Positions 15,842 through 60,346 of a stretch of DNA of 64,000 nt are shown here, in pieces. This DNA comes from Gluconacetobacter diazotrophicus PA1 5 (GTDB taxonomy: Bacteria > Pseudomonadota > Alphaproteobacteria > Acetobacterales > Acetobacteraceae): the NCBI RefSeq assembly GCF_000021325.1, contig NC_011365.1, positions 2,074,001-2,138,000 on the forward strand. The letters run 5' to 3'. The stretch's first letter is position 1. Every line of letters starts with the position of its first letter. Position numbers and translations under genes: made by a program. Below the pieces are notes generated by a model. The model was not told the origin of the DNA and ran no database searches. It saw only the letters and a program-made list of their open reading frames with translations.

Positions 15842-16924
15842 TCACCTGCTACGGGCGACCGGAGCCCGCCTGGCGTCCCGGGCATTCAGCCATGACGGGC
15901 CTTCGTTCATGCCGACGTAGGTGTTTTGTCCCGGGATTTGGTGGTGCGGATTATGTATGAACCGTGATGGTTCTTTTTCCCACTGCTGACAAATGAATTC
16001 ATATGGAGTGAGGCCGCGCAGGGTCTTGAGCCTGCGGGCGAAATTGTAGGCGGTAACGAAGTCGGCGAGGTGTTGACGCAACTGGTCATGTGTTTCGTAG
16101 TAGAAGCGCTTGACGGTGGCGTCCTTGATCGTGCGGTTCATCCTCTCGACCTGGCCATTCGTCCAGGGATGTCGCGGCTTTGTCAGTCGATGCTCGATAT
16201 CGAGATCAGCACAGGCCAGTTCAAAAGAGTGGCACCGGAACAGGACACCATCCGCCCGCATGGCCTTGATGTCTTCGGGTGTCCATCCATTGCCGGCCGG
16301 ATCGGTAAAATGCGTGCCGTTATCGGTCAGCACGGTATGGATGCGGTAGGGAACCGCAGCGGCCAGAGCACGCAGGAAGTCACCGGCAACGCGACGTGTC
16401 GCTTTCTCGTGCAATTGGACAAAAGCGAATTTCGAGGTCCGGTCGATCGCCACCAGAAGATAAAGGCGCCCCATTTCAGTGCGGACTTCAGCAATGTCGA
16501 TGTGAAAATAGCCGATCGGACAACTCTTGAACTTCGACCGTTTTGGTTTGTCGCCTTCGGTCTCGGGCAGGCGGCTGATCCCATGGCGCTGAAAACAACG
16601 GTGCAGGGAAGATCGCGTCAGATGCGGGATCGTCGCCTGAAGCGCATAAAGGCAATCATCAAGAGGCAGCAGGGTATGGCGACGGAAGGCCACAACGATC
16701 GCTTCTTCTTCGGTCGACAGGATGGTTGAGGATGCGACCTTCGGACCGGTGCGTCGATCCGACGTATCGGTCCGCCCCTTCCATTTGGCGACCGTCTTCG
16801 GGTTGATCCCGTAGCGTTTCGCCAGAACCCTCAGGCTCTCTTGACTATGTTGTATCGCTCGACGGACTGCCGCTGTCGTCGTGGCGCTTCCGTGGTGAAC
16901 CTGGCCCATAGCGCATCCTTCCAC
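15842..16924 (-). CDS. IS481-family transposase
   Basis: A 360-residue frame. The N-terminus has a helix-turn-helix (LRVLAKRYGINPKTVAKW, about 32-49). The DDE integrase core has the first Asp in FHIDIAEVRTE, the second in VLTDNGTHFTD and the Glu in WTNGQVERMNRT. These residues are intact, so it is probably active. The element itself ends at 15922 and contains no stop. The frame therefore continues about 26 residues into flanking DNA (from about YVGMNEGP), which is not part of the native transposase. Confidence 0.93.
   Translation of the reverse strand: MEGCAMGQVHHGSATTTAAVRRAIQHSQESLRVLAKRYGINPKTVAKWKGRTDTSDRRTGPKVASSTILSTEEEAIVVAFRRHTLLPLDDCLYALQATIPHLTRSSLHRCFQRHGISRLPETEGDKPKRSKFKSCPIGYFHIDIAEVRTEMGRLYLLVAIDRTSKFAFVQLHEKATRRVAGDFLRALAAAVPYRIHTVLTDNGTHFTDPAGNGWTPEDIKAMRADGVLFRCHSFELACADLDIEHRLTKPRHPWTNGQVERMNRTIKDATVKRFYYETHDQLRQHLADFVTAYNFARRLKTLRGLTPYEFICQQWEKEPSRFIHNPHHQIPGQNTYVGMNEGPSWLNARDARRAPVARSR
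15916..15921. repeat. Left target-site duplication CGTAGG of the IS481 element
   Basis: CGTAGG directly abuts the left inverted repeat and is repeated immediately outside the right one at 16966-16971. This marks the insertion point exactly. Joining the flanks through one copy rebuilds the pre-insertion sequence. Confidence 0.85.
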
Positions 16925-16965
16925 TCATGTGAAAATAATGCACCACCAAATCCCGGGACCAAACA
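15922..16965 (-). mobile_element. IS481-type insertion sequence, complete (1044 bp)
   Basis: Terminal inverted repeats of 26 bp differ at one position only. The outer part reads TGTTTTGTCCCGGGATTTGG at the left end and TGTTTGGTCCCGGGATTTGG, inverted, at the right. The copy is bounded by a 6-bp direct repeat CGTAGG at 15916-15921 and 16966-16971, the expected target-site duplication. A single transposase gene fills the element. The clean duplication points to simple transposition without later deletion. Confidence 0.93.
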
Positions 16966-38957: not shown

Positions 38958-40348
38958 GACGCCATCCCGGCCGGCTCGGCCCCGAACAGGGCCAGCAGCG
39001 GCGCGATCTTCAGGCACATTTCCGCATATTCCCGCCCGGGGTCCGACAGGATCGTGATCCCGCCCCCCGCCGCCGCCACGATCGCATCCGGCGTCGTGGC
39101 CAGGGCGCGGATGACGACCGAACTGTCCATCGCGCCATCGGTGCCGATGCGAAAGACCACCCCGCAATAGGCCTGCCGCGCCGACGATTCCAGTTCGTCG
39201 ATGATCTGCATCGCGCGGTGCTTCGGCGCGCCGGTCACCGATCCGGGCGGCAGGGTGGCGCGCAGCAGGTCGATGGCATCCCGTCCCGGGGCCAGGGTGG
39301 CCGTGACCTCGGACACCAGGTGATGGACATGGGTGAAGGTCTCCACCGACAGCAGTTCCGGGACACCGACGCTGCCGATCCGCGCGACACGACCCAGATC
39401 GTTGCGCATCAGGTCCACGATCATCAGGTTTTCCGCCCGTTCCTTCTCATCGGCCGCGAGTTCGACACGGCGGGCGGCATCCTGTGCCGGGGTGGCGCCG
39501 CGCGGGCGGGTGCCCTTGATCGGCCGGGTGCGGGCCACCCCGTCAGGGCCGAGATGCACGAACCGCTCCGGCGAGGCCGACAGCAGGCCGAAACCCGGCC
39601 CGCAGGCCAGCCACGCCCCGAACGGCGCGGGCGAGGCCCGGCGCAGGGCCCGGTAGATGGCGCCGTCCGTCAGGCCGGGCGGGCGGCGGGCGGCCATGCG
39701 CCCGGTGATGTTGACCTGGAAGATGTCGCCCGCCGCGATCCGCTCCACCGCGCGCGCCACCGCGGCGGCGTACTGCCCCGGCGCCTGGTCGGCGGCGAAG
39801 GCCAGGCGCGGCAGGGCGGCGGGGGCCGGGGCCGGCTCCATGGCCGCCCACGCGGCGCTTACGTCGGCGATCAGCCGGTCCGGATCGGGGCGGATCGTCG
39901 CCAGGTAGGCGCGCCGCCGCACACGGTCGAACAGGACGGCATGGTCATAGAACCCCGCCGCCAGGTCCGGCTGGGCCGGATCGGCCACGTGGCGGGTCGC
40001 GATCCCTTCGAGGCGCCGCCCCACCCCGTACCCGGCGAAGCCGATCACCCCGCCCGCGAACGGCAGGGCCTCGCCGGATGCGGTCACGGGCGGCGATCCG
40101 GCCGGCGGCAGCAGGGCGCGCAGGGCCGCCAGCGGATCAGATGCCAGCGGGGCCCCGCCGTCCCGCCATTCAAGGACCTGGCGCGGCCGGCGGCAGAGGA
40201 TGGTCCAGCGCGCGCGCGGCCCCGCCGGCCCGCCGCTGTCCAGGCAGGCCAGCCACGGTTCGTCCCGCCACGCCCACAGCACGTCATCAGGGTCCCGCCA
40301 CGGCAGTTCGACGGCGTGAAGGTCCCCGATGCCAACCGGACCATCCAT
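38954..40348 (-). CDS. pabB: Aminodeoxychorismate synthase component I
   Basis: A 464-residue chorismate-binding enzyme that makes 4-amino-4-deoxychorismate. It has the catalytic segments RPIKGTRPRGATP near residue 265, the metal/chorismate segment ENLMIVDLMRNDLGRV near 300, and PGGSVTGAPK-like PPGSVTGAPKHRAM near 362. No glutamine amidotransferase (pabA) is in the window; it may be supplied by another gene. PIKGT (Lys) marks it as PabB rather than anthranilate synthase TrpE. It ends 5 bp from the following ptsI. Confidence 0.92.
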   Translation of the reverse strand: MDGPVGIGDLHAVELPWRDPDDVLWAWRDEPWLACLDSGGPAGPRARWTILCRRPRQVLEWRDGGAPLASDPLAALRALLPPAGSPPVTASGEALPFAGGVIGFAGYGVGRRLEGIATRHVADPAQPDLAAGFYDHAVLFDRVRRRAYLATIRPDPDRLIADVSAAWAAMEPAPAPAALPRLAFAADQAPGQYAAAVARAVERIAAGDIFQVNITGRMAARRPPGLTDGAIYRALRRASPAPFGAWLACGPGFGLLSASPERFVHLGPDGVARTRPIKGTRPRGATPAQDAARRVELAADEKERAENLMIVDLMRNDLGRVARIGSVGVPELLSVETFTHVHHLVSEVTATLAPGRDAIDLLRATLPPGSVTGAPKHRAMQIIDELESSARQAYCGVVFRIGTDGAMDSSVVIRALATTPDAIVAAAGGGITILSDPGREYAEMCLKIAPLLALFGAEPAGMAS

Positions 40349-57916: not shown

Positions 57917-58381
57917 GACCCCCCACTGACGCTTATCCTTAATTGGACGGGACACGGTTCTGCCGTGCGGCGTTCAAGGCGACCAAGGCGACCAAGGGGC
58001 ATCGGGACTGTTCGTCCTCTTTCTTTCAATTACCTTATTGGCATTCATCCATGAATGAATTGCAAGATATTATTTTATGGTGAGTGGGGAATCTTTCGAT
58101 ACCGTGGCACGCGATGAGCGGCGCTTCGCCACAAGACAGTCTGAAACGACTATTCCATGCCTATAAACGGATAAATAACAAAATCATAATGACATATACA
58201 ATATCATTCAGTTTATATATTTACGTCAGATCATGTCATGTTTCAAATGTAACGCTCGGAATTTCATAATGTAACATGGTTATTGTTTCGAGTATTAAAA
58301 TCTTTTTTTCTGTTATGGCTTGACTTCATTCCATCATGTCCTGCCGGGACCACCTCCGTTTCGCGCGGTTTGGAGAGAAGC
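57917..58381. other. AT-rich intergenic island
   Basis: From about 58020 to 58320 the sequence is strongly AT-rich (runs such as ATATACAATATC, TTTATATATTTA). It includes a palindrome ATTCAT-CC-ATGAAT at 58043-58056 and the hairpin GGCG-CTT-CGCC near 58120. No RNA gene or convincing frame is seen. It looks like an acquired or promoter region for the sulfotransferase-like gene. Confidence 0.55.
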
Positions 58382-59154
58382 ATGCCCACCTCCCCCAAGG
58401 CCGCTCTCGCGCTGCAACAAGGAGAAAGTGCCGCTCGCCGGTCTCAGGCGACCGGACCGGCCTTGCCGCTGTTCGGCCATGTCACGCGGCTGATGGGGTT
58501 CCGGCTACAGACCGACCTTCACGAATGGGCATCGGAAATCGGCGTCCGCAGACCGACCTTCACGAATGGGCATCGGAAATCGGCGTCCGCCTGCCTCTGG
58601 GCACCAAACGGCAGGAACGCATCGACGTGATCGCCCGGCGCGGCATCCTGTTCATCCACGTGCCGAAGAACGCGGGGACCTCGGTTGCCACCGCGCTGTA
58701 TGGCCGGGCGCTGTCGCATGAATCGATGCGCCTGTTCCTCGACGTCGCGCCGCGTCTGGCCAGGACGCTGCCCAGCGTCGCCATCCTGCGGGACCCGGTG
58801 GAACGGTTCGCCTCGGCCTATCGCTATGCGCGCGATGGCGGCAGCCGGCACCGCAACGTCGCACCGCCCTTTCGCGACCGCTATATGCGGTTCGGTTCGG
58901 TCGACGACGCGCTGGATCATCTGGAGCAGGCGCGCTCGCTCTATCACATCGACCATATCTTCCGCCCGCAATCCTGGTACATCACGGACCTGCGCGATAT
59001 CTCGCACCTGCCCGATCGCGTACCGGAACTGCGTACGCTGCGCCTGCCGCATCTGAACGAAAGCCGCTCCTATCCCCTGACCCTGACGGACCGGCAGCAG
59101 GAGCGGATCCGCGCTTTCTATCGCGCGGATTTCGCGCTGTTCGACGGGCGATAG
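58382..59154 (+). pseudogene. Sulfotransferase-like gene, disrupted by a 41-bp tandem duplication
   Basis: The ATG at 58382 (with GGAGAGAAG upstream) starts one frame that reads through the first copy of a 41-bp repeat. The sulfotransferase-like part lies in another frame that continues from the second copy. Removing one copy joins MPTSPKAALALQ... directly to HVPKNAGTSVATALYG (PAPS-binding-type motif) and RDPVERFASAYRYA, giving one protein of about 240 residues. The family transfers sulfate to carbohydrates. An internal ATG at 58525 could still drive the second part (about 209 residues). Whether the duplication reverts is unknown. Confidence 0.8.
58508..58589. repeat. Tandem duplication, 2 x 41 bp
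   Basis: Two identical units of 41 bp (58508-58548 and 58549-58589) lie end to end; each starts CAGACCGACC and ends GGCGTCCG. Because 41 is not a multiple of three, the second copy shifts the reading frame of the surrounding gene. Confidence 0.97.
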
Positions 59155-59203: not shown

Positions 59204-60346
59204 ATGTCTCCCCATCCGCTGACCCGGGCCCAGGCCCGGCGCATCTGGCTGCACGCCCAACGACTGGACGAACCAGCACCCTTCGGCAGCGGGCCGGACG
59301 CCACGCGCCGGGCCGTGGAACATCTGGGCTATGTGCAGATCGATACGATCAACGTCATCGAACGCTGCCATCATCATATCCTGTGGTCACGCATCCCGGA
59401 TTACCGGCGCGAACATCTGCACCAGGCGCAGAGCATCGACAAGACCGTCTTTGAATACTGGACGCACGCCCTGTCCTACGTTCCCACCCGGGACCTGCGG
59501 TTCTTCCTGGCGGATATGCGGCAGAGGCGGCAGTCACCCGGAAGCTGGTTCGATACCGTTACGCCGGAGGATCTGCGCAAGGTCCTGGCCCGCGTACGCC
59601 GGGACGGCGCGCTGTCGATCCGCGATATCGACGACGACGTGCTGGTCGAGAAAGATCATGCCTGGGCCAGCCGGAAGCCCTCGAAACGCGCCCTGCAACT
59701 GGCCTTCCTGACCGGTGCCCTGGCCGTCAGCGCGCGAGCGGGCATGCTGAAGACCTATGAGCTGACAAACCGCCATTTCGGCTGGGAGACCCCGCCCCGG
59801 CCGGTATCGGAACGACGGACCCTGGATTACCTGCTGGACCGCGCCCTGCGGTCACAAGGGGTCGTCAGCCTGGAGTCCATCTGTCACCTGGATGCACCAC
59901 GCAAGGCCGGTATCCGCCAGGTCATCGAAGACCGGGTGCGCCGGAACCACCTGGTGCCGGTCGCCCTGGAGGATGCGGGCAGGACCGGACACTGGGCCCG
60001 CCCCGAGGACCTAGCCCCCCTGCCCCCCATGGACCACGCGCCGGTTCACATCCTGTCCCCCTTCGATCCGCTGATCATCCAGCGCCGGAGACTGCGGCAG
60101 ATGTTCGGCTACGATCACCGGTTCGAGGCCTATGTGCCCAAGGCAAAACGGGTCTTCGGCTATTTTGCCCTGCCCGTCCTGGTCGGCGACACGATCGTGG
60201 CGGCGATCGACCTCAAGGCCGATCGGCGGCGCCGCAGCCTGCAGATTCAGCAATGGACCTGGATCGGTCCCGGTTCGGACGCCCACAAGGGCCGGATCGA
60301 AGACATGCTGCACCGGTTCGAACGGTTCCAGTTCCCCACGGAATGA
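59204..60346 (+). CDS. YcaQ/AlkX-like winged-helix DNA glycosylase
   Basis: A 380-residue protein of the HTH_42 family. The catalytic-type motif QxD is present as QIDTINVIERCHHHILWSR near residue 45. The C-terminal region has ILSPFDPLIIQRRRL and FGYFALPVLVGD, typical of YcaQ. YcaQ (AlkX) unhooks interstrand cross-links by cutting alkylated bases. It is monocistronic. Confidence 0.85.
   Translation: MSPHPLTRAQARRIWLHAQRLDEPAPFGSGPDATRRAVEHLGYVQIDTINVIERCHHHILWSRIPDYRREHLHQAQSIDKTVFEYWTHALSYVPTRDLRFFLADMRQRRQSPGSWFDTVTPEDLRKVLARVRRDGALSIRDIDDDVLVEKDHAWASRKPSKRALQLAFLTGALAVSARAGMLKTYELTNRHFGWETPPRPVSERRTLDYLLDRALRSQGVVSLESICHLDAPRKAGIRQVIEDRVRRNHLVPVALEDAGRTGHWARPEDLAPLPPMDHAPVHILSPFDPLIIQRRRLRQMFGYDHRFEAYVPKAKRVFGYFALPVLVGDTIVAAIDLKADRRRRSLQIQQWTWIGPGSDAHKGRIEDMLHRFERFQFPTE

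Follow-up and report, generated by a model that had tools for sequence, protein, structure and literature searches.

Simple-sequence contingency loci are short repeats located in surface genes. The locus described here resembles them in that a changed repeat number could shift the reading frame, but it has no tract of short units and was formed by one duplication event that left two units of considerable length. Reversible tandem duplications have been reported in the pneumococcal capsule genes cap3A, cap8E and tts (Waite et al. 2001, 2003, as cited in the excerpt of PMC4243769 consulted). As in those genes, a duplication inside the open reading frame breaks the gene and the loss of one copy reopens the frame; in the pneumococcal genes, however, reversal and phenotype have been reported, whereas the present case is known from sequences alone and concerns a lone sulfotransferase gene whose two alleles both carry an additional lesion. 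With respect to its product, the gene is similar to members of the Pfam family PF03567 and to heparan sulfate 6-O-sulfotransferase (PDB 5t03), since the Pfam match was above the cut-off and 5t03 was the best match among solved structures both by sequence (E 0.00026) and by fold (8.8e-4, the sole fold match below 0.001, with the predicted model of the Nguyenibacter vanlangensis protein as query). It differs from PDB 5t03 in being a bacterial lone gene without a core segment, and the identity of the fold match was 15%.

The window, i.e. the whole stretch of 64,000 nucleotides that was analysed, belongs to the chromosome of Gluconacetobacter diazotrophicus PAl 5 as sequenced by JGI (G000). Two adjacent 41-bp units, at 58508–58548 and 58549–58589 (plus strand, as are all features below unless stated otherwise), were identical by direct sequence comparison, and TRF reported the array at 58508–58590 (period 41, 2.0 copies, 100% matches, score 166), the remaining nine rows for the window scoring just 51–65. 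The ends of the unit have 1 bp in common, which fits an accidental duplication. A search of 336 kb of the chromosome for exact tandem repeats (unit 12–600 bp, two or more full copies) gave seven, with periods of 12, 12, 12, 14, 14, 15 and 41 bp; besides the 41-bp array, none of them had a unit longer than 15 bp.

The reading frame of the ATG at 58382, preceded by a Shine-Dalgarno-like GGAGAG at 58372–58377, crosses the first unit and ends after 82 codons at the TGA 58628–58630, to which the extra unit leads; this stretch, 58382–58630, encodes the N-terminal 82 aa of the sulfotransferase. The frame with the sulfotransferase motifs crosses the second unit and continues to the stop at 59152–59154, with the catalytic part at 58591–59154 (187 aa plus stop). 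The offset between both frames equals 41 mod 3, and the array is a frame-shifting duplication inside a reading frame, of the same kind as that of cap3A. The identical adjacent units and the offset frames had already been pointed out in a preliminary description of this DNA, and both were confirmed, the former by sequence identity and TRF and the latter by the reading of the open frames. Compared with intact orthologues the frame is disabled, with no other stop within the gene, and the catalytic frame alone is still open for 272 codons, as a mechanical ORF from the ATG at 58336 to 59154 that the preliminary description had missed. In the two-copy allele, translation might start instead at the ATGs at 58336 or 58525, with no Shine-Dalgarno-like sequence 5' of either. 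A GTG of the catalytic frame at 58627–58629, overlapping the TGA of the N-terminal part (GTGA) and preceded by AGGAA at 58613–58617, is a putative restart site. As the catalytic frame has these candidate starts, we infer, and do not take as observed, the complete silence of the two-copy allele.

The catalytic part matched PF03567 with 30.8 bits (cut-off 22) over residues 11–128. Both motifs of the family, HVPKNAGTS and ILRDPVERF, which we take to be the 5'-phosphosulfate loop and the 3'-phosphate motif, were present and aligned with those of the homologues. The match in the window covered profile positions 3–176 and those of the sister proteins reached position 250, but a paralogue of the genome G011 that has the 12-codon segment discussed below reached position 165 only, and a short Pfam match is thus weak evidence of damage. 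No NCBIfam family was obtained for the four proteins scanned. When whole genomes were searched in six frames with PF03567, the gene was missed in both PAl 5 genomes, contrary to the direct Pfam match, and the copy number was taken instead from the protein search, which gave one match in the JGI genome.

Homologues were detected by protein search in 23 of 147 genomes (own genome included), and 53 of the 397 genomes drawn from the family had a match, which was weak in a few cases (the count takes in the own genome and species). At the genus level, 13 of 14 genomes matched by DNA, again including the own genome and species, the exception being G009. The homologue at G366:C3:575588-575980 shows two TGA and one TAG inside the match and is apparently a broken copy, so the gene seems to be broken elsewhere in the family too. 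A nearly whole APS kinase domain was found in both PAl 5 genomes, which makes a supply of PAPS likely and leaves the activity of the enzyme undecided. The papers listed for the strain in combination with sulfotransferases had nothing on this gene in their titles and the first lines of their abstracts, and the part of PMC10783055 consulted contained no newer assembly of the strain.

An AlkZ-like DNA glycosylase gene (59204–60346; PF06224, 6.2e-69) adjoins the sulfotransferase gene in the window and also in two loci of the Nguyenibacter group, which are the two nearest loci, one of them from N. vanlangensis LMG 31431. The order sulfotransferase, AlkZ-like, SRAP-like and epimerase-like gene is common to these sister loci (L039 and L040), the names of the last two having been read from the frames by eye. 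With these neighbours in common, the loci hold one and the same gene in an unchanged genomic position. The neighbours in the window were unmatched in the other loci searched, the AlkZ-like one being found in the Nguyenibacter-group loci only. Ten flanking frames from eight loci of other species were scanned, and a Pfam family was obtained for eight frames from six loci: lipase-like (twice), alpha/beta hydrolase, RF3, RuvC, SBF-like transporter, TonB receptor and OprB.

A cluster for surface sulfation was considered and is unsupported, given the AlkZ-like, SRAP-like and epimerase-like neighbours and the mixed flanks in other species. The role of the product as a surface sulfation enzyme, as proposed in the preliminary description, was a guess that finds no support in a gene adjoining that of a DNA glycosylase. 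The upstream region was also described there as AT-rich and as adding to an odd context. It is indeed AT-rich (26–42% G+C at 58150–58349, compared with 67% for the window); it is intergenic and partly alignable with the upstream regions of relatives. The stretch at 58251–58290, around ATTTCATAATGTAACATGG, aligns with those regions and may, judging from this alignment, be a conserved promoter element.

The second chromosome of PAl 5, sequenced by RioGene (G281), carries the 41-bp unit once, with an open frame across the junction (L026:1204-2061). The preliminary description had predicted that one unit less would give one continuous frame, and the one-copy allele that it predicted exists: the continuity of this frame was read from a natural chromosome. 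As for cap3A, an open-frame one-copy allele therefore occurs within the same species, in a sample of two genomes with one allele of each kind. A single unit was also present in the seven loci of relatives that were aligned at the DNA level (L003–L007, L010 and L011), and the one-copy protein aligned over the junction with those of relatives. The comparison of strains and relatives that had been proposed thus gave a one-copy allele in the second chromosome and single units in the relatives; two copies in all strains, which would have spoken against the prediction, was not what was found. Since the unit is single in the RioGene chromosome and in these relatives, two units are the derived state.

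Exact tandem duplications of at least 10 bp in the open frame were found in 2 of 34 homologue loci from whole genomes and in none of the 80 named loci, five of which (L067, L095, L101, L109 and L129) failed the frame-coverage test, with matches ending early in two. The two positive loci were that of the window and L025, with an unrelated 15-bp repeat near its end. The latter (G011:C1:868577-869161) is a second, 61% identical sulfotransferase gene of its genome, and its in-frame tandem repeat encodes GTISG units. The doubled 41-bp unit gave no matches in a scan of viral contigs.

Over window positions 39198–64000 (about 25 kb), only six SNPs and three indels separated the two PAl 5 sequences, which indicates that the duplication is recent. 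The indels were a single base, the 41-bp unit, and an intergenic tandem unit of 9 bp, CAAGGCGAC, which lies upstream of the array at a distance of 533 bp and is extra in the window with respect to the RioGene chromosome (57975–57983, position according to the aligner).

A second lesion, overlooked in the preliminary description, was found in both G. diazotrophicus sequences. Twelve codons are missing in frame between WYITD and LRDIS, and the alignments place the site of the missing 36 bp (in relatives, for example, KSGQPAVRYLVH) at 58989–58990 of the window. The segment was ungapped in all 80 named homologue loci (the best 80 of 105 relatives) and was kept by the other 32 of the 34 aligned loci, which overlap the 80 named; 37 loci had been given for this alignment, of which L022–L024 failed the 1e-12 threshold. 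Two of its residues, V203 and L206, are nearly invariant in the homologues. In the predicted model of the N. vanlangensis protein the segment holds the third strand of the sheet (E205–208, local confidence about 94), and the equivalent strand is absent in the model of the catalytic part from the window, which overall is not a bad one (mean confidence 80.9). The three blocks of 10 residues after the site had confidences of 56, 64 and 57 in this model, compared with a fall from about 94 to 67 in the sister model. Structure prediction judges damage poorly, and this comparison of models supports damage to the protein and does not prove it. With the strand-bearing segment gone and the normal frame broken, a complete fold was not found in the window copy. 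Since a segment conserved in 80 of 80 homologues is missing in both alleles, the one-copy allele possibly has no working "on" state; the deletion is in frame, and function could be partly retained in spite of it.

Selection was estimated with a codon model from an alignment of 10 sequences that had 186 codons after gapped columns were dropped. Omega was 0.145 for the G. diazotrophicus branch, against 0.162 for the other branches; omega = 1 was rejected (2 delta lnL about 23), and one ratio fitted no worse than two. The relaxed selection that is expected of a pseudogene was thus not observed, and the estimate fits a recent loss only: selection held for most of the branch, so any loss must be recent. 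The low omega is the main evidence against an old decay and would be compatible with a one-copy protein that still works in its shortened form.

On these grounds, the most probable explanation is that of a spontaneous frameshifting duplication, formally revertible, in a sulfotransferase gene that is being lost, after a 36-bp deletion shared by both sequences. The gene would encode a PAPS-dependent sulfotransferase similar to heparan sulfate 6-O-sulfotransferases, located at the same place in the sister lineages and on its way to loss in G. diazotrophicus. The in-frame deletion, common to both PAl 5 sequences, would have come first and taken out the conserved core segment, and the tandem duplication would have arisen later by a spontaneous event, in the JGI-sequenced line only, with translation from the normal start then expected to end prematurely. 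One of two direct 41-bp copies can be lost via slippage or recombination, and the two-copy allele is for this reason formally revertible; such a loss would reopen the frame, probably only to an already damaged enzyme. Gene loss is also the more economical explanation, as two independent lesions occur in one species and neither of them in the 80 named homologues.

The preliminary description had instead suggested that the array could be a reversible on/off switch. In a rival explanation along these lines, selection would maintain an array that flips often enough to be useful, with one unit as the on state and two as the off state. Both states do occur in two sequences of the same strain name, the lineage is under purifying selection, and reversible sequence duplication is reported for the pneumococcal capsule genes in the excerpt of PMC4243769. 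However, two genomes with one allele of each kind give no sign of repeated change, no third copy number was seen, the frames of all 80 named loci were devoid of exact arrays, the 1-bp overlap of the unit ends is what an accidental duplication gives, and the conserved 12-codon segment is missing from both alleles. A switch is therefore possible and, in view of the shared deletion, unlikely. Its full form, in which the 41-bp unit, present once or twice, would switch a lone sulfotransferase between type-strain lines of a nitrogen-fixing endophyte and the enzyme with the 12-codon deletion would be active, is decidedly improbable.

An error in one of the two published sequences at the array, either a false duplication in that of JGI or a collapse in that of RioGene, is an unlikely alternative. 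At 83 bp, the array is short against the usual length of plasmid-end reads, which speaks against an artefact. Such reads are described for RioGene in the part of PMC2765452 consulted. According to the excerpt of PMC3035290 consulted, both sequences are said to derive from ATCC 49037 and are in wide conflict, which would favour an error, but the optical map was fitted better by the JGI sequence. The excerpt of PMC2765452 names BR 11281, a culture kept in the Embrapa collection, as the source of the RioGene DNA and contemplates that the two sequences may represent two strains, or one that is diverging fast.

Along 323,812 aligned bases (only alignments of more than 3000 columns, on one strand), the JGI and RioGene sequences differed by 61 indels and 679 SNPs, of which 482 were transitions and 197 transversions. 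The SNPs were strongly clustered, their number per 20 kb varying between 1 and 156 (L153–L169 against L136–L152), and this clustering, together with the transition bias, suggests that most of them are real polymorphism, which argues against an artefact. Those located in crudely chosen ORFs were 252 synonymous and 253 nonsynonymous, an even split that, with this choice of ORFs, leaves room for some sequence errors. The clustering, as from recombination blocks, and the excess of transitions suggest two different strains under one name. The 41-bp unit was the largest of the differences flagged as an exact tandem unit in these aligned bases; a difference of 51 bp, not flagged as such, sits in a repetitive stretch. 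A 16-bp tandem duplication, CCAGCATCTGCCGGAT, at G000:C1:2194770 is double in RioGene and single in JGI, that is, in the opposite direction. The window also contains, at 15842–16964, a transposase-like element with a minus-strand frame of 360 aa that looked integrase-like by eye; about 1,042 bp of this stretch are missing from the RioGene chromosome.

It is very improbable that the two-copy allele escapes silencing by translation of the catalytic frame from ATG 58336, ATG 58525 or GTG 58627 with a changed or shortened N-terminus, since, although the 272-codon ORF, the GTGA overlap with its AGGAA and the mostly low model confidence for residues 1–63 of the sister protein would allow it, both ATGs lack a Shine-Dalgarno-like sequence, a start at the GTG would leave little of the helix that precedes strand 1 (H68–80 in the sister model), a stop-start overlap of such kind is fairly likely by chance, and the 12-codon segment is gone whichever start is used.

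Overall, the sequence observation of the preliminary description is correct. A duplication of this kind can be regarded, by analogy with the pneumococcal capsule genes, as already known, and the present one is a clean frameshifting tandem duplication that sets apart two genome sequences published as one strain. If both sequences are right, a single PCR would distinguish which PAl 5 line a laboratory has. The locus also calls for caution: where the same gene carries a second lesion, the restoration of a frame by the loss of a repeat does not count as evidence of a switch. If the switch were nevertheless true, it would represent phase-variable sulfation in a plant endophyte.
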